Position numbers and translations under genes: made by a program. Below are positions 12,553 to 28,443 of a stretch of DNA of 64,000 bases, piece after piece (position 1 is the stretch's first letter; every line of letters starts with the position of its first letter). The notes below the pieces were generated by a model, which made no database searches, was not told where the DNA came from, and saw only the letters and a list, made by a program, of their open reading frames with translations. The stretch comes from Acidobacteriota bacterium (GTDB lineage: Bacteria > Acidobacteriota > Blastocatellia > Pyrinomonadales > Pyrinomonadaceae): the NCBI GenBank assembly GCA_003697135.1, contig RFGC01000037.1, forward strand, positions 186,001-250,000. The letters are read 5' to 3'.

Positions 12553-13485
12553 CTATGCATGAAAATTTTGAGTAGAGATAAACTTTACAGCAGTTGCGCC
12601 TGTGCCGACGGCTGTGCTGATAGTGGGAGAAAGCCGATTGGCAACGTCACCAACAGCAAATACACCTTTTAAGTTTGTTTCGCAATTCTCATTGACTCTG
12701 ATGTAACCAAAGGAATCTGTTTCTACCTGATCTTTGAATAGCTCTGTATTTGGTTCAACACCGATGCGAATTAGAACCGATTGAACAGGTATGAAAAAAC
12801 TTTGCTTTGTAGTCAAATCTTCTAGTTCTACACCTTCAACGCAAGAGTGTCCAATTATCTTTTTGGCGACAGTATTGGTTAGCACCTCGATCTTGCCGTT
12901 ATTTTTGACTTTTTCAATAAATTCACTACGAGCACGGAAATCCTCTCTTCTGTGAATAAGAAAAACTTTTTTCGCTTTCTGACTTAAAATCAGGGCATTT
13001 TCAAGTGCAGCGTCACCACCACCGATGATGCAAACTGTTTTCCCTCTGACTTTTTCAGCGTCTTTCTTTCCAGAGGTTAGAATTCCTTTTCCTTGAAACT
13101 CATCTTCACCTTCGATGTTTAGCTTTCTTCTTCTAACGCCGGTGGCTATGATCAAGTTTGTAGCTGACAGCTTCTTTCCGTCTGAAAGTAAAATCTCTTT
13201 TCTCTCCAAATCTACTTTCGAGATATTAACGCTGGTCTTTATTGATATATTTCGGCTTTCCAGATGCTTCAAAAATCTCTTGTATAGATCAGCTCCGTCT
13301 TTTGCTTTGATGCCTAGATGATTTTCTATCCGGTTATAAATTATGTGCAATTGCCCACCTGGTCGGTTTTCTTTTTCTAGAATTACTGCTTTTAGTTTGA
13401 GTTCATCACACCACAAAGCAGCTGACATACCTGCAACTCCCGCACCAATGATTATCACATCAAGATGTTTCTTCACGGAAGACAT
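12553..13485 (-). CDS. thioredoxin-reductase-like FAD/NAD(P)H oxidoreductase lacking the redox CxxC
   Basis: A 310-residue two-dinucleotide-fold flavoprotein. The FAD motif is GAGVAG at residues 14-19, with RPGGQL following. The NAD(P)H site is GGGDAA at 155-160 with HRREDFRA at about 178-185, whose arginines fit NADPH. GVFAVGDV at about 274-281 is the C-terminal FAD contact. In thioredoxin reductase a C-A-T-C disulfide sits before the second glycine motif. Here the same spacing reads S-G-K-K, with the following Asp kept, so both cysteines are replaced without an indel. It cannot be a classical thioredoxin reductase. TrxR-like ferredoxin-NADP reductases (YumC type) also lack the disulfide and are the best alternative. 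It is divergent from the chemosensory operon. Confidence 0.82.
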   Translation of the reverse strand: MSSVKKHLDVIIIGAGVAGMSAALWCDELKLKAVILEKENRPGGQLHIIYNRIENHLGIKAKDGADLYKRFLKHLESRNISIKTSVNISKVDLERKEILLSDGKKLSATNLIIATGVRRRKLNIEGEDEFQGKGILTSGKKDAEKVRGKTVCIIGGGDAALENALILSQKAKKVFLIHRREDFRARSEFIEKVKNNGKIEVLTNTVAKKIIGHSCVEGVELEDLTTKQSFFIPVQSVLIRIGVEPNTELFKDQVETDSFGYIRVNENCETNLKGVFAVGDVANRLSPTISTAVGTGATAVKFISTQNFHA

Positions 13486-13652: not shown

Positions 13653-15611
13653 ATGTCTATGGAACTAAAACCGGACGCTCAAGATTCGTCAACTCAGATG
13701 TTTGATAACGAGCTTCTAGCTTATTTGCATCTCGAGGGTGGTTTGACCGAGATGCTGAAAGCGGCCATTAAGATGGCTCATTCAGGCAAAAAATCAGAGG
13801 CAAAGCGAATTTTCTTGTATGTTGCCAACTCGGAGCCAAACAATGAAGCCGCTTGGTTGTGGCTTGCTTCTTTGAGTGAGTATCCAGAAGAACTGCTATG
13901 TTTTTTGAAGAATGCTCTTCGTGTGAATCCGAATAATCAAAAAGCATTGGAATGGCAAAAAAACGCTCACGCTGTTATGGCAAGAACATTTGTTCAGCGT
14001 GGGATTGTTGCATATCGAGAGGAGAAGAAAGCACTAGCGAAGCAGTTTTTTGAGGAAGCGGTTAAGAATGATAGTGAAAATGAGCATGCATGGCTTTGGC
14101 TTGCTTCTGTTTTGGAAAATGTGGAGCAGAAGCAGGCTTGCTTGGAGAAAGTATTGAGGATAAATCCTAATAATGAAGCGGCAAGGAGTTCTCTAAATAC
14201 GATAAAGCGGCAAGTTGCTTATAATATGCTGAAAAAGGCGAATGCTGCGTTTATCTCTGGTAAAACGACCGAAGCCCGCATGATACTCAATGAGTTGATG
14301 AATTTCGATTCCGAAATCGAAGAAGCGTGGCTTTTGAAAGCTTATCTTGCTGAATCGCTTGACGAAAAGCGAGTTTGCTTTGAAAAGGTTCTAAGTCTTA
14401 ATCCTCATAATGAGATGGCCAAAACCGGATTGGAGGCGCTCAGAGATATTCAAAAAATAGAGGAAAAAGAAGAAATATCGTCTGTAGTTACTTCAAGGGA
14501 GCACGAATCAGCGGTCTCGCCTGAAGATGCAAAAGTTTTCGAGGAAGGCAAGGTAACTGTTGAGTCAAGACAGCTTGAAGAGCAAGCTGCCGGGGAAGAA
14601 ATAGTGAAAAGTGAGGCTTTACACCAAGATTTGTCTGAGCCGGTTTTGCAGGAAATTGAGCGGGCCGAAGTTAAAGAGCCTATTGAAGTTGAATCAGGTG
14701 TTGGATTGGTTCAGGAGCAATTTATATTCCAACAAGAACAAGATTTTCAGCAAGAGCAAGCTAGTTACACAGTAGAAGGCTCTTTGACTCAAGAAGAGAG
14801 CTTTACTCGTCAAAAAGAAGCAGTTTCAGAGGAAAATTTGAGAGCACAAGAAGTGTCTGAGGTTGCTGAATTTGAGACTGCTAGGGAAGCGGAGGCAGGA
14901 AAGACTTTCTTGGAAGAAGTGGAGACAATTCATTCTGAAACTGTTGAGCCCGAGCTTACTGAGTTTAAGCCTGAGTTCGATCGGCCTAATGATAGAACCG
15001 AAGATAAAGATGACTTTAATTTTGAAGTCCTTGAGTCTCCTAGGCAAGATGAGATTGAATCTGTTGAGGCTGCTGAAACTGTAGCTCCAGAAGAAATCGG
15101 AGCGAAGTCTTTGACAGGAAGTCAGCAAGTTTTGCAGGAAGTTGAATCAATTGGAGCAAAGGAACAAGTCATAGAGCATCAGGAAGTTAAGCCAGAAGCA
15201 GTCCCACAGAAACCTGAAGAGGTCTCAGCCTCACAGGAGAAAAGGAGAAAGGTTATTTTGATAGTTGACGATAGTCCGACTATCCGCAAACTTATATCTG
15301 TGAAACTTGAAAAAAGTGGTTATGATGTAATGCAGGCAACTGATGGAATTGAGGCACTTGCTGTAATTAAACGAGTTGTGCCTGATTTGATACTGCTGGA
15401 TATTACGATGCCGAATATGGATGGCTATGAGGTCTGCAAGGCTATTCGCTCTAATGACTCGACGAAGGATGTGCCAGTAATTATAATTTCAGGGAAAGAT
15501 GGGTTTTTTGATAAGGTCCGTGGGCAAATGGCTGGTTCAACTGGATACATCACAAAACCTTTCGGACCTGAAACTCTAATGAAAACAATAGAGCCTTATT
15601 TGAAGGATTAA
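13653..15611 (+). CDS. TPR-repeat response regulator (PilG/CheY-like receiver)
   Basis: A 652-residue protein and the first gene of the chemosensory operon. Residues about 25-265 hold three tetratricopeptide-like modules of about 65 residues, each with AWLWLAS or AWLLKAY and then L-x-K-V-L-x-x-N-P-x-N. Residues about 270-525 are a very Glu/Gln-rich, probably disordered linker. Residues about 533-650 are a complete receiver domain: DD in IVDDSPT, phospho-acceptor Asp near 583 in LLDITMPNMDG, Ser in IISG and Lys in YITKPFG. No DNA-binding output domain is present. The receiver most resembles PilG/PilH/CheY, so it probably takes phosphate from the CheA at the end of the operon and passes the signal through its TPR part. 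Confidence 0.85.
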   Translation: MSMELKPDAQDSSTQMFDNELLAYLHLEGGLTEMLKAAIKMAHSGKKSEAKRIFLYVANSEPNNEAAWLWLASLSEYPEELLCFLKNALRVNPNNQKALEWQKNAHAVMARTFVQRGIVAYREEKKALAKQFFEEAVKNDSENEHAWLWLASVLENVEQKQACLEKVLRINPNNEAARSSLNTIKRQVAYNMLKKANAAFISGKTTEARMILNELMNFDSEIEEAWLLKAYLAESLDEKRVCFEKVLSLNPHNEMAKTGLEALRDIQKIEEKEEISSVVTSREHESAVSPEDAKVFEEGKVTVESRQLEEQAAGEEIVKSEALHQDLSEPVLQEIERAEVKEPIEVESGVGLVQEQFIFQQEQDFQQEQASYTVEGSLTQEESFTRQKEAVSEENLRAQEVSEVAEFETAREAEAGKTFLEEVETIHSETVEPELTEFKPEFDRPNDRTEDKDDFNFEVLESPRQDEIESVEAAETVAPEEIGAKSLTGSQQVLQEVESIGAKEQVIEHQEVKPEAVPQKPEEVSASQEKRRKVILIVDDSPTIRKLISVKLEKSGYDVMQATDGIEALAVIKRVVPDLILLDITMPNMDGYEVCKAIRSNDSTKDVPVIIISGKDGFFDKVRGQMAGSTGYITKPFGPETLMKTIEPYLKD

Positions 15612-15615
15612 AGTT

Positions 15616-16080
15616 ATGGCTTTCACTGATCAATTGGTCGAAGTTCCTCAAACTTCTGAGGTAGCGAGGTATCTGATTTTCTTTCTCGGTGATGAGCTTT
15701 ATGCTATTAACACCGAAAATGTGGTAGAAATTCTTGATAACCTTGCGTTTACACCTATTCCAACTACGGCTGAGTGGTTTTTGGGAGTGGGTAATTTTCA
15801 CGGTGAAATTGTCCCTGTCATAGACATAAAAGCTTTTCAGCAAAAAGATCGTTCTTTAGAACCAAGGAAATTCATAGTGCTACGCTCTCTAAAAAGAAAA
15901 AACTTCGATATAGCAATACCTGTAGACACGGTTTGTGGAATAAACTCTGTAGATTTTGAGATTACTGGTAGAGCGCAAGAAGATTCTTTCCTCATAGCTG
16001 AGTCTGTTTACAATCAAAAGTGCTTGTATTTGGTTGATGTGGAAAGGTTGATAAAAGAAATTCTAAACAGGGTTAAATGA
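15616..16080 (+). CDS. CheW/PilI-like chemosensory adaptor
   Basis: A 154-residue CheW-domain protein. The pattern FFLGDELYAINTENVVEIL..., then FLGVGNFHGEIVPVIDIK and a C-terminal LYLVDVERLIKEIL, matches the two five-stranded barrels of CheW. CheW bridges receptors and CheA in chemosensory arrays. It begins 5 bases after the TPR-receiver gene and ends 4 bases before the first MCP-like gene, so translation is probably coupled. The family residues for CheA and receptor contact are only partly conserved, in line with the atypical receptors next to it. Confidence 0.85.
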   Translation: MAFTDQLVEVPQTSEVARYLIFFLGDELYAINTENVVEILDNLAFTPIPTTAEWFLGVGNFHGEIVPVIDIKAFQQKDRSLEPRKFIVLRSLKRKNFDIAIPVDTVCGINSVDFEITGRAQEDSFLIAESVYNQKCLYLVDVERLIKEILNRVK

Positions 16081-16083
16081 GTT

Positions 16084-17622
16084 ATGGCGAGGACTTTTTC
16101 GATATTCGATTCAATAAGAGGTAAAGTTTGGATCACTACGACTGCCTTGGCATTTTTCGTTTGTGTATTCGGTTTTGTTTCGTATTTGCTGGTTTCCTTT
16201 ATTATTAGCGATAACTTGTATGCAGTTCTTGTTCCTTTTGTTTTAGCGGCTATTTGTGTTGTTATTTTCGGTTGGTGGCTTTCTGGTGAGATTAGCGCTC
16301 CGATAGAAAGACTTAGCCTTATTGCAAAATCTTTAGAAAGAGGTATAACTTCCAGTTTTCCGAATACATCTGGTTCTACGGAAACAGATGAAATTTTGGA
16401 ATCTCTGAGAAAGATTGGCTTACAAATGCAAAAATTTATGCGCTCTATGGAGGAAGTCAGCAATGGAAACATTGAAAACGTCCAGATAACTGCCAATGAC
16501 AGACTTAATCAAACTTTTCAAAAGTTGCTTTCAAAGGTGGCAAGCTCGATCGAGGCAAAAGAGGAGCTCGATAAGTTGAACCAAGAACTCGAAAAACTGA
16601 TTTCTCAAATCACTTCTGCCGGATTCAGTTATGAGCCTTTTGAGATTGATTTTGACTCAAGGAGGGTAAGGGAAATTGCGGCTAATTTTGCTGTTACAGT
16701 AGATGAACTAAGACGTTTCTTAGAGGAGTCTAGGGAAACCTCTACTTCGGGTTATAAAGTTACAGCGGAGGTTAGAAACTCTCTGCAAAGCTTGGTAGAA
16801 GAAACTGATAGTAGAACACGGGAATTGGTGCGAGCTTCAAAAGAGCTTAAAAAACTTCCCGAAATAGTCCAGCGAATTTCAACTGAGCTTTCACAGGCAA
16901 CAGATTGGGTTAAGTTTTCCGTTGAACAAATAAACAAGCGAAACCATACGGTTGTAGAAAGTTCAAATGCATTGAGCTTGATACGTAAAAAGATTCAAGA
17001 TGCTTTTGTTCATGCAGAGCAAATAAACCAACATTTTAGGCAGATAGATAAGTTTGCGAAAACTCTGCAGGATATGGCCCATAGGATTGATATGATTTTA
17101 TTAAACTTTTCGGTTCACGAGGCCCAATCCGAAGGCCAGCTTGAGCGTCCTTCTTTGATTAACGAGGAATTAGAGCGTCTCGCACATCGCATTGAAGACT
17201 TAAGCCACCAAATATATGTTTTGCGCCGAGGCCTACAAAGAGAGCTTGGCGGTATGATGGGCTTGCTTGATTCTTCGATTCAACAAGTTACAAACTTAAC
17301 AAGCTCAATAGTTGAACTTCGAGATTCAATGGAAGATTTAGAAAGATATGCAACTAAGTTTCTCGGCTTACAGGAAAAAACAGTTTCTTATTCTCGTGAG
17401 CAGTCGCAGAAAATAGAAGAATCTTTCCAAACTCTTGCTAAAAGCACTATCGAAGCGGAAGATTTCGCAGAAAGATTGCGCTCGCTTTTGATAAGATTGT
17501 CGGATGTGCTTGAATCAATGAGGAAATTGCAGGATACTGTTTCAAAATTCAAGAAATTCCGAACTCATGAAACAGAAGCGAACAAAAACGCTCTTGAAGC
17601 CTATGACTACGATTTGATTTAG
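16084..17622 (+). CDS. atypical methyl-accepting chemotaxis-like protein 1 (PilJ-like)
   Basis: A 512-residue membrane protein with two close hydrophobic helices at about residues 14-37 and 43-65 and almost no periplasmic loop. A HAMP-like region (to about 120) and a long coiled coil to the C-terminus follow. The operon position between cheW and cheA makes it the receptor. The signalling tip is very degenerate: where normal MCPs read L-L-A-L-N-A-A-I-E-A-A-R, this reads M-I-L-L-N-F-S-V-H-E-A-Q. The trimer-contact Glu and Arg become His and Gln, and the usual G-E-x-G-x-G-F-A-V-V-A block after it is absent. No CheR-binding pentapeptide is seen at the C-terminus. Stimulus probably comes from inside the membrane or a partner, not a periplasmic ligand domain (inference). 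Confidence 0.75.
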   Translation: MARTFSIFDSIRGKVWITTTALAFFVCVFGFVSYLLVSFIISDNLYAVLVPFVLAAICVVIFGWWLSGEISAPIERLSLIAKSLERGITSSFPNTSGSTETDEILESLRKIGLQMQKFMRSMEEVSNGNIENVQITANDRLNQTFQKLLSKVASSIEAKEELDKLNQELEKLISQITSAGFSYEPFEIDFDSRRVREIAANFAVTVDELRRFLEESRETSTSGYKVTAEVRNSLQSLVEETDSRTRELVRASKELKKLPEIVQRISTELSQATDWVKFSVEQINKRNHTVVESSNALSLIRKKIQDAFVHAEQINQHFRQIDKFAKTLQDMAHRIDMILLNFSVHEAQSEGQLERPSLINEELERLAHRIEDLSHQIYVLRRGLQRELGGMMGLLDSSIQQVTNLTSSIVELRDSMEDLERYATKFLGLQEKTVSYSREQSQKIEESFQTLAKSTIEAEDFAERLRSLLIRLSDVLESMRKLQDTVSKFKKFRTHETEANKNALEAYDYDLI

Positions 17623-17643
17623 GGGAACTTAAGGAGAAAAACA

Positions 17644-19218
17644 ATGAAAAAAATCTGGCAAAATTTTTTAAGCAAGATTATATCAGCTCTTTCCATAGTC
17701 TTCCTGATTTTGGGATTGATATTTGTTGGCGCTTCGTATTTTGCTGGAGAAGCCATTAGTTCGGTTGGTGTGATTATAGTTTCGATTGCGTCTGCTTTAG
17801 CAATTTTAGGGTTGGTATCTACGAACTTTTATCTTGCTGAGCTTACGGGAAAAATCAAAGAGGCTGTTTTTGTTGCTGAAAAAATCTCACGAGGAGAAAT
17901 TTTCTACACATCGAAAGAAAAGACCGATAATGAATTGAAGATCGCCTTAGGAAAGATTTCGGAAAATTTTGTTCAAAGAATGGAAGTAATAGAAAAGATG
18001 GCTTTGGGAAATTTGGATTTGGACGTTGAGCTGTATTCTGAGTCAGACGCATTTGGTCAAGCGCTTCAGAATGCAATAGCGAAACTAAAAACACAAGTTC
18101 AGACGAAGAAGCAACGTGAAGAATTCCAAAAATCAATCCAGAATCTTTTGACAAAAACTGCTCAGATCATAAATGGAGATTTCTCAGTTCACGTGACGGT
18201 TTTCAATGAAGACTTTGAGCCTGTAGCTAAAGCTTTTAACTCCATGACCAAAGAGCTTAACGATCTGATTGCGCATATTAAAAAGCTTAGCAATGAAATC
18301 TCGGCCTCATCTCGTAGAGTAAAGGAAATCATTGCCTATTTGGAGCATGAAAACGAGACACAGATTGAGCAAATTTCGCAGTTTGTAAATGCTTATTCAA
18401 ATATGCAAATTCGTAAGATATTTGAAAAAAGTAATTTAGTAGTCCAAACTGCGAGTGATTGTTTAAGTGCTACGGTTTATGCCGTTAAAGCAGTTCAGGA
18501 AAGCCTAGGTTCGATGAGTTCGATTCGATTTCGAGTTCAGGAAACAGCAAAGCGCGTTAAGAAACTGGGCGAACGCTCACAAGAAATATCGCAAACGGTT
18601 GATTCAATTTCAGACGTTTCCCACAAAATTGAGCTTTTAGCTTTGAACTTGAACCTGCATTCAGTATCTTCCCATGACGATAAAAAGAAATCAGCCCAAA
18701 TTGCAAGAGAGGCAGAGGTGTTGGCTGAAAACTTCAATCATCTCACGCAGCAAATAGAGACTTTGGTTCAAACTGCACAATCGGAATTGCAAGAAGTGAT
18801 TGTTTCTATGGACCAAACAATTCAAGAAGTGGTAGTGGGTTCAACGCTTGCAAACCGGATTCAACAAACTCTTTCTGAGCTAGAAAGAGCCACGATTCAG
18901 CTTAATGAATTTTTAGAAGAAGTTTCAGGCTTGATAACTCAAAGTGTTCAGGTTGCAGAAGATATTTCTAGGTTTACTGTTAGCTTTGAGAAATCTGCAA
19001 AGATGATGAAAAGCAACATCAAGCAGTCTCTTGGTGTTGTATCTGAACTTGTATCGGGTTCAAGCGAACTTGTTAGAGCGGTTGGAGACATGAGAACAAC
19101 TGAGATCGAAGTTCCTAAGATCGATGAAAATCTTGAAGATGTTGCAGACCGCAAGGCTGAAGCACTTAAGACTGTTGAAAATTTTAAGACAACCACCATG
19201 GAAAAAAAATTGACGTGA
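17644..19218 (+). CDS. atypical methyl-accepting chemotaxis-like protein 2 (PilJ-like)
   Basis: A 524-residue protein with the same plan as its neighbour: two hydrophobic helices (about residues 14-36 and 41-63), no periplasmic domain, HAMP-like repeats and a long coiled coil. Its tip is easier to recognise (KIELLALNLNL-H-S-V-S, then A-R-E-A-E-V-L-A-E-N-F), corresponding to the MCP hairpin and the E-V-R-x-L-A segment. Again a His stands where the conserved Glu is expected and Ser replaces the Arg. Two divergent copies side by side suggest duplication and possibly mixed receptor oligomers. It is preceded by AAGGAGAAA and spaced 21 bases from the previous gene. Confidence 0.78.
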   Translation: MKKIWQNFLSKIISALSIVFLILGLIFVGASYFAGEAISSVGVIIVSIASALAILGLVSTNFYLAELTGKIKEAVFVAEKISRGEIFYTSKEKTDNELKIALGKISENFVQRMEVIEKMALGNLDLDVELYSESDAFGQALQNAIAKLKTQVQTKKQREEFQKSIQNLLTKTAQIINGDFSVHVTVFNEDFEPVAKAFNSMTKELNDLIAHIKKLSNEISASSRRVKEIIAYLEHENETQIEQISQFVNAYSNMQIRKIFEKSNLVVQTASDCLSATVYAVKAVQESLGSMSSIRFRVQETAKRVKKLGERSQEISQTVDSISDVSHKIELLALNLNLHSVSSHDDKKKSAQIAREAEVLAENFNHLTQQIETLVQTAQSELQEVIVSMDQTIQEVVVGSTLANRIQQTLSELERATIQLNEFLEEVSGLITQSVQVAEDISRFTVSFEKSAKMMKSNIKQSLGVVSELVSGSSELVRAVGDMRTTEIEVPKIDENLEDVADRKAEALKTVENFKTTTMEKKLT

Positions 19219-19234
19219 GGATGGGTGTGAATTT

Positions 19235-21970
19235 ATGTTTCCAGATTTTTTGCAGGCTTTCTCAAAGGAAGCAAAAAATTATTTATCACGAATTCAACAA
19301 GACCTTCGTTTTTATCTAACAAGCGCCCGTTGGTCAGAGTTAAAGAATGCTCTAGATGCTTCGGAAAAAGTAAAGGATGCGGCTTTTGCTATTGGCTTGA
19401 CAAATTTAGCAAACGCAATGGCTGAATTTCATGAGAAACTAAAAAATGCAATGCTTTCGGAATCGTTTTCAGCCGATAAAATCAATCAACTTCTGGGCGA
19501 TCTTGCTGAGATCGAAAAGATATTAGATGAGACCCAGTTGACGCCTGTAGATATAGAGGTTGGACTAGTGGATTTGCAAGGAGTTCAAGAAGAAACGCAA
19601 GAGACTCAGCAAGAGAAGCAAGAAGATTTTGAGATTGACAGGGAACTACTTGAAATCTTTACGATGGAAGCTGATGAACACTTAAGAAACATAAAGCACA
19701 ATTTATCCATACTTGAAAAGTCACCAGAAAACGAGGAGGCTCTATCGCAGATTCGTCGTAGCTGTCACACTCTTAAAGGTTCTGCTGGAGTGATAGGTTT
19801 GAAGAGACTTTCCGAGCTTGCTCACAAAATGGAAGACCTTTTGGACTGCTTGGCTAGACATCCATTCAAAGTTGATGAGGCAATATTAGATACGCTTCTT
19901 GTAGCAACAGATTGTTTAGAGGTTCTAGCTTTTAGTGAAGTTACTCCTCAACTCAGTCAGAAAGTTTTGGAAATTGAAAAGAGACTTTTGGAAGCTCAGG
20001 AAAAAGTAGAATTTTCAGCCGAAAAAGTAGAGTCTGCGGCTGAAAAAATAGAATCTTCGGCTGATCTTAAAGTTTTAGATAAGGTCGAGAAGGAAGTAAC
20101 GATAAGTGAGGCTGGCCACCAACAGTTATCGCTTAAACCGGAACCGCAAATTGAAAAAGCTGTAGAGCAACCTAAAGCAGTTATCCGCGTATCCTTAGAG
20201 CGTCTTGACGAAATAATCGAGTTAGCAAGTGAAATCTCAATCAACTACTCGTTTTTTGGAAGTCAGCTTTTGGAATTGAAAAAACAGGTCGAAGAGATGA
20301 AGAATAATGCTCTTCGCACTGCACGATTGAGTTCAAAAATAGAAACAACCTTCGGTACGGTCAGTGCTAACTCGCAGTTTGCAGAAGCTCTTCACAATGC
20401 CTCTGTTAGAGATTTTGATTTTTTAGAGCTTGACCGATACACGGAGTTTCACCAAACTACACTAGAACTCACTGAAGCCGCATCTGACGCCACGACTATT
20501 GCAAATGAGTTATCTCAAATTCTGAGTGAACTTAATTTCACCTTTAACTCTCAGAGAAGGCTATTTGAGGAGCTACAAAACAAGCTCACGAAGCTCAAAA
20601 TAATTCCTTTTTCTACGATCTCACCGCGCTTGCACCGCACTGTTAAGGTAATCGCAGAGGAAGAGAAAAAGGATGTTGAACTTATAATCGAGGATAATCA
20701 AATAGAAGTTGATTCTGAGGCTCTGCATGTTGTTGTTGAGCCTTTGTTGCATCTTTTAAGAAATGCCGTGGCTCACGGTATAGAGCCTCCTGAGATCAGG
20801 AGAAGTTTGAGAAAGCCTGAAAAAGGAAAAATAGTTGTCCGAGCTTTTAATGAAGGGAACTACATTGGTTTTAGTGTTAGTGACGATGGTAGCGGTATTC
20901 CTGTTGAGCGTATCAAAGAGAAGGCTGTTGAGATGGGAGTCATTTCCGAAGCTGAAGCTCAACAAATGTCCGATGATAAAGCTTTATCGCTTGTTTTTGT
21001 TTCAGGGCTTTCAACTGCATCGAGGCTAGATGAAATCTGCGGACGTGGGCTAGGACTAGATGTTGTTAAGGCATGCTTGCAAAAAAATCGAGGTAGAATC
21101 GAAGTTAAGAGTAGACCTTGGGAAGGCACAACTTTCACGATATTTTTGCCCAGAATGTTTAACATAACAAAGGTTTTGCCTTTCAAGATAGATGGTGCAA
21201 CTTATGCTTTCCCGATTAAATCCATTCAACAAGTTATCGAAATGCGGGTTGAGGAATTTGACATTGCCAGGTCGAAAGAACAACTCCTAATTATCAAAGG
21301 AAAGCCTTATAGACCGCTTTATCTGAATGAGCTTCTAGGTTTCCAAATACCGATGAAATCTTCTGGAGAGAACTATTTGCTTTTGCTCGTCGAAAATCAT
21401 CAAGAATCTTTTGCTGTTGCTGTTGAGATGATTACCACTCCGCAGGAAGTCATTGTTAAACCGCCCAGAGGGCTACTTGAGAAGATCAGAGGTTTCATAG
21501 GAGCTTCTATATTAAGCAACGGACAAGTCATGCCGATTCTGGACATAAATAGTTTACTTGAAGGATTTTCGCCCAAACTAATCTCAACAACTGAGAAAAA
21601 GCCAGAAACTTTGGTTATGGTTGTTGATGATAGCCCAAGTGTTAGGAAAATGAACGAAAAAATGCTCAAAGATGCTGGTTTAGTGCCTATAACGGCTAAA
21701 GATGGTATTGAAGCTTTGGAAATTCTTGAATCTGGCAAAGAACTTCCTAGTGTGATACTAACCGATATAGAAATGCCTCGCATGGATGGTTACGAATTGC
21801 TTGCTACTCTTAAGCGAAGGGAAAAATTCAAGAAAATACCAGTTGTGATGATAACCTCTAGAACAAGTGAAAAGCATCGTCAGAAGGCTTTGGAGTTAGG
21901 CGCTGCAGAATATGTCACAAAACCCTTTGACTATGCCGAATTGGTAGAACGCATCAAGAAAATGATCTGA
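19235..21970 (+). CDS. hybrid CheA/PilL-ChpA-like histidine kinase with C-terminal receiver
   Basis: A 911-residue hybrid kinase. Residues about 1-110 look like an Hpt helical bundle without a usable His. Residues about 130-245 are a true Hpt domain with His178 in S-C-H-T-L-K-G-S-A. The dimerisation helices start near 310. The HATPase is at about 480-640, with N-A-V-A-H-G-I (N box), SDDGSGIP (G1) and GRGLGLDVV (G2). A CheW-like domain follows at about 645-780, and the receiver at about 793-911 has phospho-acceptor Asp844 in LTDIEMPRMDG. This order (Hpt-kinase-CheW-REC) is that of PilL/ChpA and gliding-type CheA proteins. Own receiver plus the TPR-receiver gives two outputs. CheB and CheR are not encoded nearby. 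Confidence 0.92.
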   Translation: MFPDFLQAFSKEAKNYLSRIQQDLRFYLTSARWSELKNALDASEKVKDAAFAIGLTNLANAMAEFHEKLKNAMLSESFSADKINQLLGDLAEIEKILDETQLTPVDIEVGLVDLQGVQEETQETQQEKQEDFEIDRELLEIFTMEADEHLRNIKHNLSILEKSPENEEALSQIRRSCHTLKGSAGVIGLKRLSELAHKMEDLLDCLARHPFKVDEAILDTLLVATDCLEVLAFSEVTPQLSQKVLEIEKRLLEAQEKVEFSAEKVESAAEKIESSADLKVLDKVEKEVTISEAGHQQLSLKPEPQIEKAVEQPKAVIRVSLERLDEIIELASEISINYSFFGSQLLELKKQVEEMKNNALRTARLSSKIETTFGTVSANSQFAEALHNASVRDFDFLELDRYTEFHQTTLELTEAASDATTIANELSQILSELNFTFNSQRRLFEELQNKLTKLKIIPFSTISPRLHRTVKVIAEEEKKDVELIIEDNQIEVDSEALHVVVEPLLHLLRNAVAHGIEPPEIRRSLRKPEKGKIVVRAFNEGNYIGFSVSDDGSGIPVERIKEKAVEMGVISEAEAQQMSDDKALSLVFVSGLSTASRLDEICGRGLGLDVVKACLQKNRGRIEVKSRPWEGTTFTIFLPRMFNITKVLPFKIDGATYAFPIKSIQQVIEMRVEEFDIARSKEQLLIIKGKPYRPLYLNELLGFQIPMKSSGENYLLLLVENHQESFAVAVEMITTPQEVIVKPPRGLLEKIRGFIGASILSNGQVMPILDINSLLEGFSPKLISTTEKKPETLVMVVDDSPSVRKMNEKMLKDAGLVPITAKDGIEALEILESGKELPSVILTDIEMPRMDGYELLATLKRREKFKKIPVVMITSRTSEKHRQKALELGAAEYVTKPFDYAELVERIKKMI

Positions 21971-26106: not shown

Positions 26107-26293
26107 TTCTATTGACTCTCTCTGAAATTTTATATTCACACCGATCTATTTTCCATCAGAAAGTTGGTTTCAAGAGTTATTTACGAAATGTTAGCGATAG
26201 AAGTTTTCTGTTTTGTGTTTATTGAGAATTGTAATAAAATCATCAGAACGTAGGGAAAAACTCAAGAAACTTATCAGTGAGGTTGAAGATAAG

Positions 26294-26695
26294 ATGTCTT
26301 TTGAAGCGCTTGGAATGGTAGAAACCAAAGGTTTCATCGGAGCTGTAGAAGTGGCTGATGCGATGGTGAAAGCCGCAAATGTTCAACTGATCGGGAAAGA
26401 ATACATTGGTGCTGGTTACGTGACAGTGTTTGTTCGTGGTGATGTTGGCGCAGTTAAAGCGGCGACCGATGCCGGAGCAGCAGCGGCAAGGCGTGTTGGT
26501 GAATTGGTTAGTGTTCACGTCATACCACGCCCGCATCATGAGGTCGAGAAATGCCTTCCGAAAGGAGGCGCAATTCGGTATAGTCCCGATGAACAGGCAT
26601 TGCAGAGCGGCGAAAGCCGTCAATTGAGTGCTGGTGAAACAAGTGGCACTTTGGAAGTTAAGGTGAATGACAAAAGCAAAACCAAGAAAGAGTAA
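26294..26695 (+). CDS. bacterial microcompartment shell protein, BMC-H type, with C-terminal extension
   Basis: A 133-residue hexameric shell protein (PduA/EutM/CcmK family). The BMC fold (residues about 1-90) opens with [20 protein letters not shown] and contains [13 protein letters not shown] and [11 protein letters not shown]. The longest frame adds 27 codons, but the family start MSFEALGM at 26294 is clear. Residues about 91-133 are an extra hydrophilic tail not needed for the fold. The pore loop reads E-Y-I-G-A-G where PduA has E-K-I-G-S-G, so the pore-lining Lys and Ser are replaced. It is the first gene of a four-gene microcompartment locus, 32 bases before the aldehyde dehydrogenase. 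Confidence 0.93.
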
Positions 26696-26727
26696 GGTCT
26701 AGGTTGCATTTTTGAGGCTTTCCAACA

Positions 26728-28443
26728 ATGGAAAATAACCTTTCGGCATCACAAAGAGAAGCATCCGAAGCTGTGGAAGCCGCTCATTTAGCTTCGCTAA
26801 CGGTAGCTAAGTTTGATCAGGCGAAAATTGATCGCATCTGCGAAGCTATGGCAAGAGTAGCACTGGCTGAATCAGCACGGCTCGGTCAGATGGCTCATCA
26901 GGAAACAGGTTTTGGAAAGCCGGAAGACAAATACGAAAAAAATCGCTTTGCTGCGGAAGATGTCTGGAATCATTTCAAAAATCTAAAGACTGTCGGGATT
27001 ATTTCTGATAAAGGTAGCGTTGTTGAAATAGCTTCTCCAAGAGGTGTTGTTGCGGCGATAATTCCTTCTACGAATCCGACTTCTACAGCGATTTTCAAAA
27101 TCATAATAGCAATTAAATCGAGAAACACAATTGTTCTTTCGCCTCATCCCGCGGCTGTTCGGTGCGTAATGGAGACGGCTCGCGTGATGAAGGAAGTAGC
27201 CGTTAAGGAAGGGCTTCCGCCCGACGCAATACATTGCTTGACTGAGCTAACAATTGAAGGCACTGAAACTTTGATGAGACACAAGCAAACTAAAGTAATT
27301 CTTGCGACTGGTGGGCTTGGATTAGTTCGTGCCGCTTATTCTTCAGGAAAACCCGCCTTTGGTGTTGGGCCGGGAAATGTGCCGGTTTACATTGAAAAAA
27401 CTGCCGATTTGGAAAAGGCAGTTTCTGATATTTTGACAGGCACTTGTTTCGATAATGGCACTATTTGTGCTTCGGAGCAGTCGGTCGTAGTTGATGCTTC
27501 GATAGCAAAACAGGTGCGTGAGGAATTCAAACGGCAAGGCGCTCATTTTCTTACTCAAGACGAAGCTGACAAAGTTGCAAAAGTTTTGGTTACAGAGCAG
27601 AGAACACTAAATCCAAAAATTGTTGGAAAATCTGCTGAATACATTGCGAATCTTGCAGGAATTTCGATCCCGCCAAACACTAGATGCTTGATTGCCGATT
27701 GTGGCGGTGTTGGACGCGATTATCCATGGTCAATCGAAAAGCTTTCACCAACGCTTGCTTTCTTTGTTGTGGAAGATTTTGAAAAAGCGGCTTTGAGATG
27801 TTTGGAAGTTCTGAACTTCGGTGGAATGGGGCATACGGTCGGAATGCATACGCGCAATAGACAGGCCGCCATCGCTTTTGCTGAATTGATGCCCGCTGCG
27901 CGGATTTGCATAAATACGCCGACAACTCACGGTGCAATCGGTTTTTCAACCGATCTGCCACCTTCGATGACTTTGGGATGTGGCTCTTGGGGCGGAAATG
28001 TTACAAGCGACAATATCTCGCCGATTCATCTTCTTGATATAAAGCGCGTAGCTTTTGAAACTCGTCCTGTCGGCAAGAAAATTCAACAAACACAGCAGGT
28101 CCAAAAGCCGAAGCCTAGAATAAGTCGAGAAGAGATCGCTGCAATAGTTGATAGTTTCTTAGCAAAGAGGCTTTCCGAATCTGTTGACATTGAAAAGTCT
28201 CGAGCTGAAGATTTGTCTCAGCCCGAGCTAGCTCAATCCACAAGCCCTGTTAAAACCATAATTCATGAGTTAAGATTGCCTGAAAAAACCGAAAATGGTA
28301 AAAGAGCGGTTGATTTTGTAAGCGAAAATGACGTAAGGAACGCACTTGAACGAAACGAGAAGATTTATATTCACTCTAAGACAATAATCACACCAGCGGC
28401 ACGTGATTTGGGTGAGGAGAAAGATATTTTCGTTAAAACTTAG
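26728..28443 (+). CDS. CoA-acylating aldehyde dehydrogenase (EutE/PduP/AdhE-like) with extra C-terminal module
   Basis: A 571-residue microcompartment aldehyde dehydrogenase predicted to convert an aldehyde, NAD+ and CoA into acyl-CoA. The core (residues about 1-450) shows [28 protein letters not shown], the catalytic Cys247 in NGTICASEQ, and [12 protein letters not shown]. It resembles the AdhE/sulfoacetaldehyde branch more than short PduP. PduP-type enzymes are about 465 residues; here about 120 residues are added. A Gln/Pro-rich linker leads to an amphipathic helix at 465-482 ([17 protein letters not shown]) that looks like an encapsulation peptide. A small module at 528-570 ends with [17 protein letters not shown], similar to the T-P-x-A-R segment in EutT-type proteins. 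No N-terminal encapsulation peptide is seen. Substrate unknown. Confidence 0.92.

Follow-up and report, generated by a model that had tools for sequence, protein, structure and literature searches.

A Tfp-class chemosensory operon without CheR and CheB in the Pyrinomonadaceae, and the possible stepwise loss of its receptor array

The operon and its genome

The window, i.e. the whole analyzed stretch of 64,000 nucleotides, carries an operon of five genes in one direction (13653-21970), ordered TPR-REC, CheW, receptor 1, receptor 2, and CheA-REC. Together with the gene adjoining it upstream, the features are as follows.

12553..13485, minus strand: thioredoxin-reductase-like flavoprotein without CxxC (TIGR01292 257.9 bits, below the cut-off of 343)
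13653..15611, plus strand: TPR-REC, with a TPR solenoid at about residues 30-270, an acidic linker at 271-530, and a PilG-type receiver at 535-646
15616..16080, plus strand: CheW (PilI-like coupler), Pfam CheW 5.4e-19
16084..17622, plus strand: receptor 1, with two transmembrane helices, a weak HAMP, MCPsignal 3.1e-9, and a degenerate tip
17644..19218, plus strand: receptor 2, with a layout like that of receptor 1, MCPsignal 4.3e-10, and a degenerate tip (alignment and tip comparison)
19235..21970, plus strand: CheA-REC (ChpA-like), with an Hpt-like region, an active Hpt, P3, P4 ATPase, P5/CheW, and REC

The genes are spaced by 4, 3, 21, and 16 bases, all five open reading frames are intact, and their products comprise 652 aa (TPR-REC), 154 aa (CheW), 512 and 524 aa (receptors), and 911 aa (CheA-REC). 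Positions, spacing, and Pfam assignments agree with an earlier note on this DNA, which had described five coupled genes for a TPR-REC, a CheW, two receptors, and a hybrid CheA. An Rfam search of the operon region gave no match.

The receiver of TPR-REC was recognized at 3.3e-30 (Pfam Response_reg) and its TPR repeats only near the Pfam cut-off; residues 1-270 form a TPR solenoid in the AlphaFold model (pLDDT 91.5). A structure comparison of the TPR part returned generic TPR proteins only, and the absence of FimV among the matches listed shows nothing either way. The linker is indeed rich in glutamate (62 of the 260 residues from 271 to 530). In both receptors, hydropathy revealed two adjacent hydrophobic segments with no space for a periplasmic domain, as had also been claimed before, and alignments showed this hairpin layout to be common to all relatives of the same layout (type II, see below). 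The methylation consensus [ASTG]2-x2-[EQ]2-x2-[ASTG]2 had no match in the window receptors and matched two receptors of type I operons; because the pattern also misses receptors from CheR-bearing operons, the missing match is weak evidence. CheA-REC contains the Pfam domains Hpt, HATPase_c, CheW, and REC, and no P2. One good Hpt bears the active His (HTLKG), a second, weaker Hpt-like region at the N-terminus has no active His, and the remaining catalytic motifs are NAVAHGI, DDGSGI, and GRGLGLDVV.

The genome of the window (2.79 Mb, 47 contigs, 97% complete) has its nearest public kin in isolate SKYG66, among the metagenome-assembled genomes of the Pyrinomonadaceae (Acidobacteriota, Blastocatellia). 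Searches of the operon and of the rest of this 97%-complete genome found neither CheR nor CheB, while the controls in other genomes (E. coli, B. subtilis, and others) were positive; in the control Synechococcus elongatus, CheW and MCP were present and CheR and CheB both absent. The methyltransferase and methylesterase reported missing from the operon are therefore missing genome-wide, and adaptation by methylation seems absent. CheW domains are limited in this genome to the operon CheW and the one inside CheA, and no MCP domain occurs outside the two operon receptors.

The genome searches for pilB, pilT, cheR, and cheB that the earlier note had proposed also returned PilB (above the TIGR02538 cut-off) and three PilT homologs (above the TIGR01420 cut-off). 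PilB, one PilT, and PilC form one cluster. In addition to these and to the two further PilT homologs, the genome has PilM and, as a separate cluster, type II secretion-like genes. No pilus genes adjoin the operon. As PilB occurs in nearly all Blastocatellia genomes, with or without the operon, co-occurrence cannot prove the pilus as its target.

Two further observations were made outside the operon. At its N-terminus, PilB (G000:C19, L158 8502-10331) carries a c-di-GMP-binding domain of the MshE type (NF053729, 74 bits vs. a cut-off of 38), so that c-di-GMP may be a further input to pilus extension. Within the window, at 26213-28443 on the plus strand, a short microcompartment-shell-like protein was seen by eye beside an aldehyde dehydrogenase-like gene, a possible bacterial microcompartment locus.

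Class assignment and known systems

In a tree of CheA P4 and P5 domains, the Blastocatellia CheAs shared one side with Acinetobacter ChpA, a PilL-like CheA from a Pseudomonas plasmid, and a Deinococcus CheA. The branch delimiting this side was supported at 100/99 in a tree with few Tfp references, two of them long branches; with P4 alone, the Tfp placement was weaker (85/69) and did not decide the class. Across the branch lay Salmonella (F7), Listeria, Priestia, Azospirillum, and the Mesorhizobium and Burkholderia ACF references. We took the class labels of these references from gene context and general knowledge. The CheA phylogeny called for by the earlier note thus places the kinase on the Tfp side, against F1, F7, and ACF references. 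Two other classes were rejected for CheA on the basis of the references across the 100/99 branch, namely the flagellar class (Salmonella, Listeria, and Priestia) and the ACF class (Mesorhizobium, PleD-type, and Burkholderia, Wsp-type).

The receiver of TPR-REC has its best match in Acinetobacter PilG (41%, 1e-36; 47% for the type I receiver), with which it shares the stretch S-x-KDG-x-FD ... G-x-x-x-GS-x-x-Y-x-TKPF. The stand-alone REC of type I operons matches PilH best (47%), and the CheA receiver matches the REC of ChpA (48%). Because of the CheA tree, the PilG-type receiver, and the pilus machinery in the genome, the window operon is assigned to the Tfp class (Pil-Chp), and the suspected Pil-Chp likeness is borne out by the tree and the receiver. 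By the same sequence comparisons, TPR-REC is identified as the PilG belonging to this system, in a form fused with TPRs. A PilH-type second response regulator is absent from the operon, and type II operons have no stand-alone REC. PilH is usual in P. aeruginosa, but A. baylyi can position its pili without it, and CheR/CheB are also missing from the operon of Acinetobacter, an accepted member; for these reasons, neither PilH nor CheR/CheB were taken as defining for the class. A RomR-like regulator was considered for TPR-REC and dropped, as the domain order is reversed: in RomR, the REC is N-terminal and precedes a Pro- and Glu-rich output (PMC3441718).

Comparison with known systems located the shared and the deviating parts. 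The window operon shares with the Pil-Chp system of P. aeruginosa (PilG-PilH-PilI-PilJ-PilK-ChpA-ChpB) a Tfp-class CheA with C-terminal REC, a PilG-type receiver, CheW, a receptor, and the pilus machinery. It differs in (i) having no PilH, PilK (CheR), or ChpB (CheB); (ii) two receptors without periplasmic domain; (iii) fewer Hpt; and (iv) a PilG fused to a TPR solenoid and an acidic linker. The Pil-Chp operon of Acinetobacter baumannii/baylyi likewise has no CheR/CheB, but it has PilH, a single PilJ of 704 aa, and a bare-receiver PilG recruited by separate FimL/FimV. The cyanobacterial Pix/Hmp (Tax) systems share a Tfp-like layout and an output receiver to which a further domain (PATAN) is joined at the N-terminus, and Synechococcus elongatus also has no CheR/CheB. 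A Tfp-like layout was also seen in an operon on the Deinococcus proteolyticus plasmid pDEIPR01 (CheW-MCP-MCP-CheA-DUF4388-REC), in whose stretch CheR/CheB are not annotated. In contrast to the window operon, these last two have PATAN or DUF4388 in place of TPR, and larger receptors with sensory parts of their own. A Pil-Chp system without CheR/CheB is thus already known, and the absence of the two enzymes has precedents in Acinetobacter and Synechococcus. We found no description of the TPR-PilG form, of the family-wide loss of adaptation, or of the type III loci described below; with incomplete coverage of the literature, this is weak evidence. It is above all the type III end state that we regard as new.

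Three operon layouts in the Blastocatellia

Relatives were collected by a search of 162 genomes across the class together with a scan of named genomes, and annotated with local profiles and a Pfam check. Three layouts were found. Type I, in other Blastocatellia families, consists of TPR-REC, REC (PilH), CheW, a receptor that is longer and includes a periplasmic region, CheR, CheA (ChpA), and CheB (examples L064, L065, and L067; partial variants L066, L070, L073, and L077; L068 is a contig fragment of a type I operon that includes CheR and CheB). Outside its family, the window operon has its closest relatives in the three example operons; they share TPR-REC, CheW, a receptor, and a ChpA-like CheA with it, but retain the PilH-type REC, CheR, CheB, and the longer receptor. 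Type II, the layout of the window, comprises a TPR-REC whose acidic linker is long, a CheW, two receptors that have no periplasmic domain, and a CheA; PilH, CheR, and CheB are absent from the operon. By search it was counted in 35 Pyrinomonadaceae genomes (the window genome and 34 others), with about 25 operons read, and is therefore a variant of the lineage and not a one-off.

Of the 35 genomes with the type II layout, 28 had no convincing CheR. In the other seven, CheR lies beside additional CheW domains (G052, G055, and G065) or in open reading frames of 538-2968 aa (G042, G053, G057, and G096). The loss of adaptation is therefore a property of the layout and not an accident of one assembly. 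Methylation enzymes encoded elsewhere and pairing with the operon, which the earlier note had named as a possible refutation, were rejected on the same grounds, none being present in the window genome. The TPR-PilG fusion is ancestral across the class and also occurs in operons that retain CheR and CheB, so that the view of TPR-REC as an unusual output gives way to that of a TPR-fused PilG. Between TPR and receiver, most relatives of types I-III carry a zinc-ribbon-like CxxC...CxxC (e.g. residues 688-705 of the L043 TPR-REC), which is missing in the window genus.

In type III, TPR-REC is directly followed (gap of -44 to 67 bases) by a kinase of 680-759 aa with Hpt, P3, P4, and REC and without a CheW domain, and the locus has no CheW or receptor gene. 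Using as criterion a best CheA match confined to P4 and a trailing receiver, with no CheW domain anywhere in the genome, the search counted type III in 21 genomes, all of genus code g22. All 21 have PilB, and an MCP appeared in a single one (G089), as a weak match below the cut-off. Hpt, N, G1, and G2 motifs are kept in all 16 distinct kinases examined, and none of the 16 has a hydrophobic segment above the usual threshold. One kinase (L121) is shorter and has no receiver. Where flanks were read (L074-L076), the flavoprotein gene lies upstream as in type II, and because it is shared, type III is taken to be the same locus. In the window this gene is transcribed away from the operon. Among 24 loci of types II and III, about 20 have it beside the operon, whereas genus code g3 does not; it was not counted as a part of the system.

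CheA is understood as the kinase of a receptor array, to which it is tied by its CheW domain. A survey of CheAs in 2023 found the CheW domain in 100% of them, this domain being also one of the two used for recognizing CheA (PMC10782961). Compared with the canonical CheA of that survey, the four core domains are all present in the CheA of the window, whereas type III kinases have no CheW (P5) domain. Type III is classified, on domain and gene content, as a putative array-free descendant of a chemosensory system.

Changes at the receptor tips were detected within type II. Receptor 2 of most type II genera carries the canonical Tfp-type tip ALNASLQASAAGEAGRGF (PilJ counterpart ALNAAIQASMAGEAGRGF). 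In the window and in L047 of the same genus, both tips are unlike ALNASLQASAAGEAGRGF and unlike each other. Tip identity between the two species is 18% and 24%. Among pairs with a similar P4 divergence, 84 for the one tip and 124 for the other, none was as low; the pairs are not independent, since species recur in them, and windows of 45 residues are noisy, yet the contrast is large. CheW, P5, TPR, and the receptor 1 membrane hairpin are at least as conserved between the two as expected, CheW and P5 more so than average, and no other part has diverged nearly as far as the tips; identities are 66% (TPR), 69% (REC), 52% (P4), and 74% (hairpin). Thus, the tips are probably no longer under the usual constraint in the window genus, and the kinase probably works for the most part without dependence on the receptors.

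The P4 tree places type II inside type I (99/98) and type III inside type II, a nesting with which the TPR-REC tree agrees. A single clade (100/100) unites 15 of the 16 kinases of type III, and L074 groups with a long-branched type II row; a single origin of type III was not rejected (AU p 0.31). As the trees were rooted by the type I outgroup or by midpoint, we infer the direction of change, and a direction from full to reduced is supported because the complete gene set matches Pil-Chp elsewhere. These data can be read as a stepwise dismantling of the Pil-Chp array in the Pyrinomonadaceae, with losses of (i) methylation and PilH; (ii) the outer domain of the receptors; (iii) the receptor-kinase interface, in the window genus; and (iv) in type III, the receptors, CheW, and the CheW domain of the kinase. 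A soluble CheA-derived kinase and a TPR-PilG working without an array would be left. We regard this account as about evenly balanced between right and wrong.

Proposed function and alternatives

We moderately favor the reading that the operon encodes a reduced Tfp-class system controlling type IV pili, with decreasing reliance on receptors. CheA (ChpA) would phosphorylate the PilG-type receiver of TPR-REC. In Pseudomonas and Acinetobacter, FimL and FimV recruit PilG to pili (PMC9596432; PMC12632253); here, the fused TPR solenoid would replace such a separate adaptor and dock phospho-PilG at the pilus machine, where it could control pilus placement or extension by PilB. Methylation memory would be absent, given that there is no PilH, CheR, or CheB. 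The CheA receiver would probably drain phosphate, as a CheA-REC has been argued to act as a phosphate sink in genomes without phosphatases (PMC10782961). As short membrane hairpins, the receptors could report at most on the membrane or the cell interior.

For pilus placement in A. baylyi, whose operon has no pilK and chpB, pilI, chpA, and pilG are required and pilJ and pilH are dispensable (PMC9596432; PMC12632253). A pathway mainly doing placement could thus shed PilH, methylation, and finally the receptors, an order of dispensability that matches the series of losses observed here. The parallel has a limit, since CheW is lost in type III but still required, as PilI, in A. baylyi.

The constrained CheW and P5 of the window genus count against this pilus reading, as they argue that some array-like contact is still in use. 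They are consistent with a working array, in which the two hairpin receptors would sense the state of membrane or cytoplasm without methylation adaptation, the odd tips having co-evolved in such a way that coupling to CheW and CheA is preserved. A non-methylating array is also assumed for the cyanobacterial Pix/Hmp systems. Moreover, the receptor genes are retained, in order, in the family operons that were readable, and the tip of receptor 2 is canonical in most type II genera. However, no comparison pair with similar kinase divergence has tips as poorly conserved as either tip of the window genus, and a co-evolving interface should change on both sides, yet CheW and P5 are conserved. Co-evolved tips are therefore disfavored, and we consider a working array of this kind rather unlikely. 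The same tip divergence, together with the stepwise gene loss in relatives, could suggest a decaying remnant without present function. This seems highly improbable to us, since all five frames are intact, TPR, REC, P4, and the receptor 1 hairpin are conserved between the two species at the identities given above, and the catalytic motifs persist in every type III kinase examined.

An ACF-type or second-messenger pathway, with TPR-REC governing c-di-GMP, cAMP, or gliding instead of pili, would fit a TPR-REC without known effector domain, and the MshE-type domain of PilB makes a nucleotide route to pili possible. Against it, the PleD-type and Wsp-type references branch with the flagellar classes, apart from this CheA, and no GGDEF or cyclase gene was recognized in or beside the operon among the open reading frames read. 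We hold such a pathway to be improbable.

Under the preferred pilus reading, the TPR-PilG fusion suggests, by gene fusion, the docking partner of PilG. Within one operon lineage, extant forms span the range between a full Pil-Chp system and an array-free module of two genes at the same place in the genome. The series makes it testable by comparison which jobs of Pil-Chp need a receptor, and what minimum of CheA is required for it to stay useful. If the stepwise dismantling is true, it would mean that the core of CheA can be selected outside arrays, and that pilus positioning needs no sensing.
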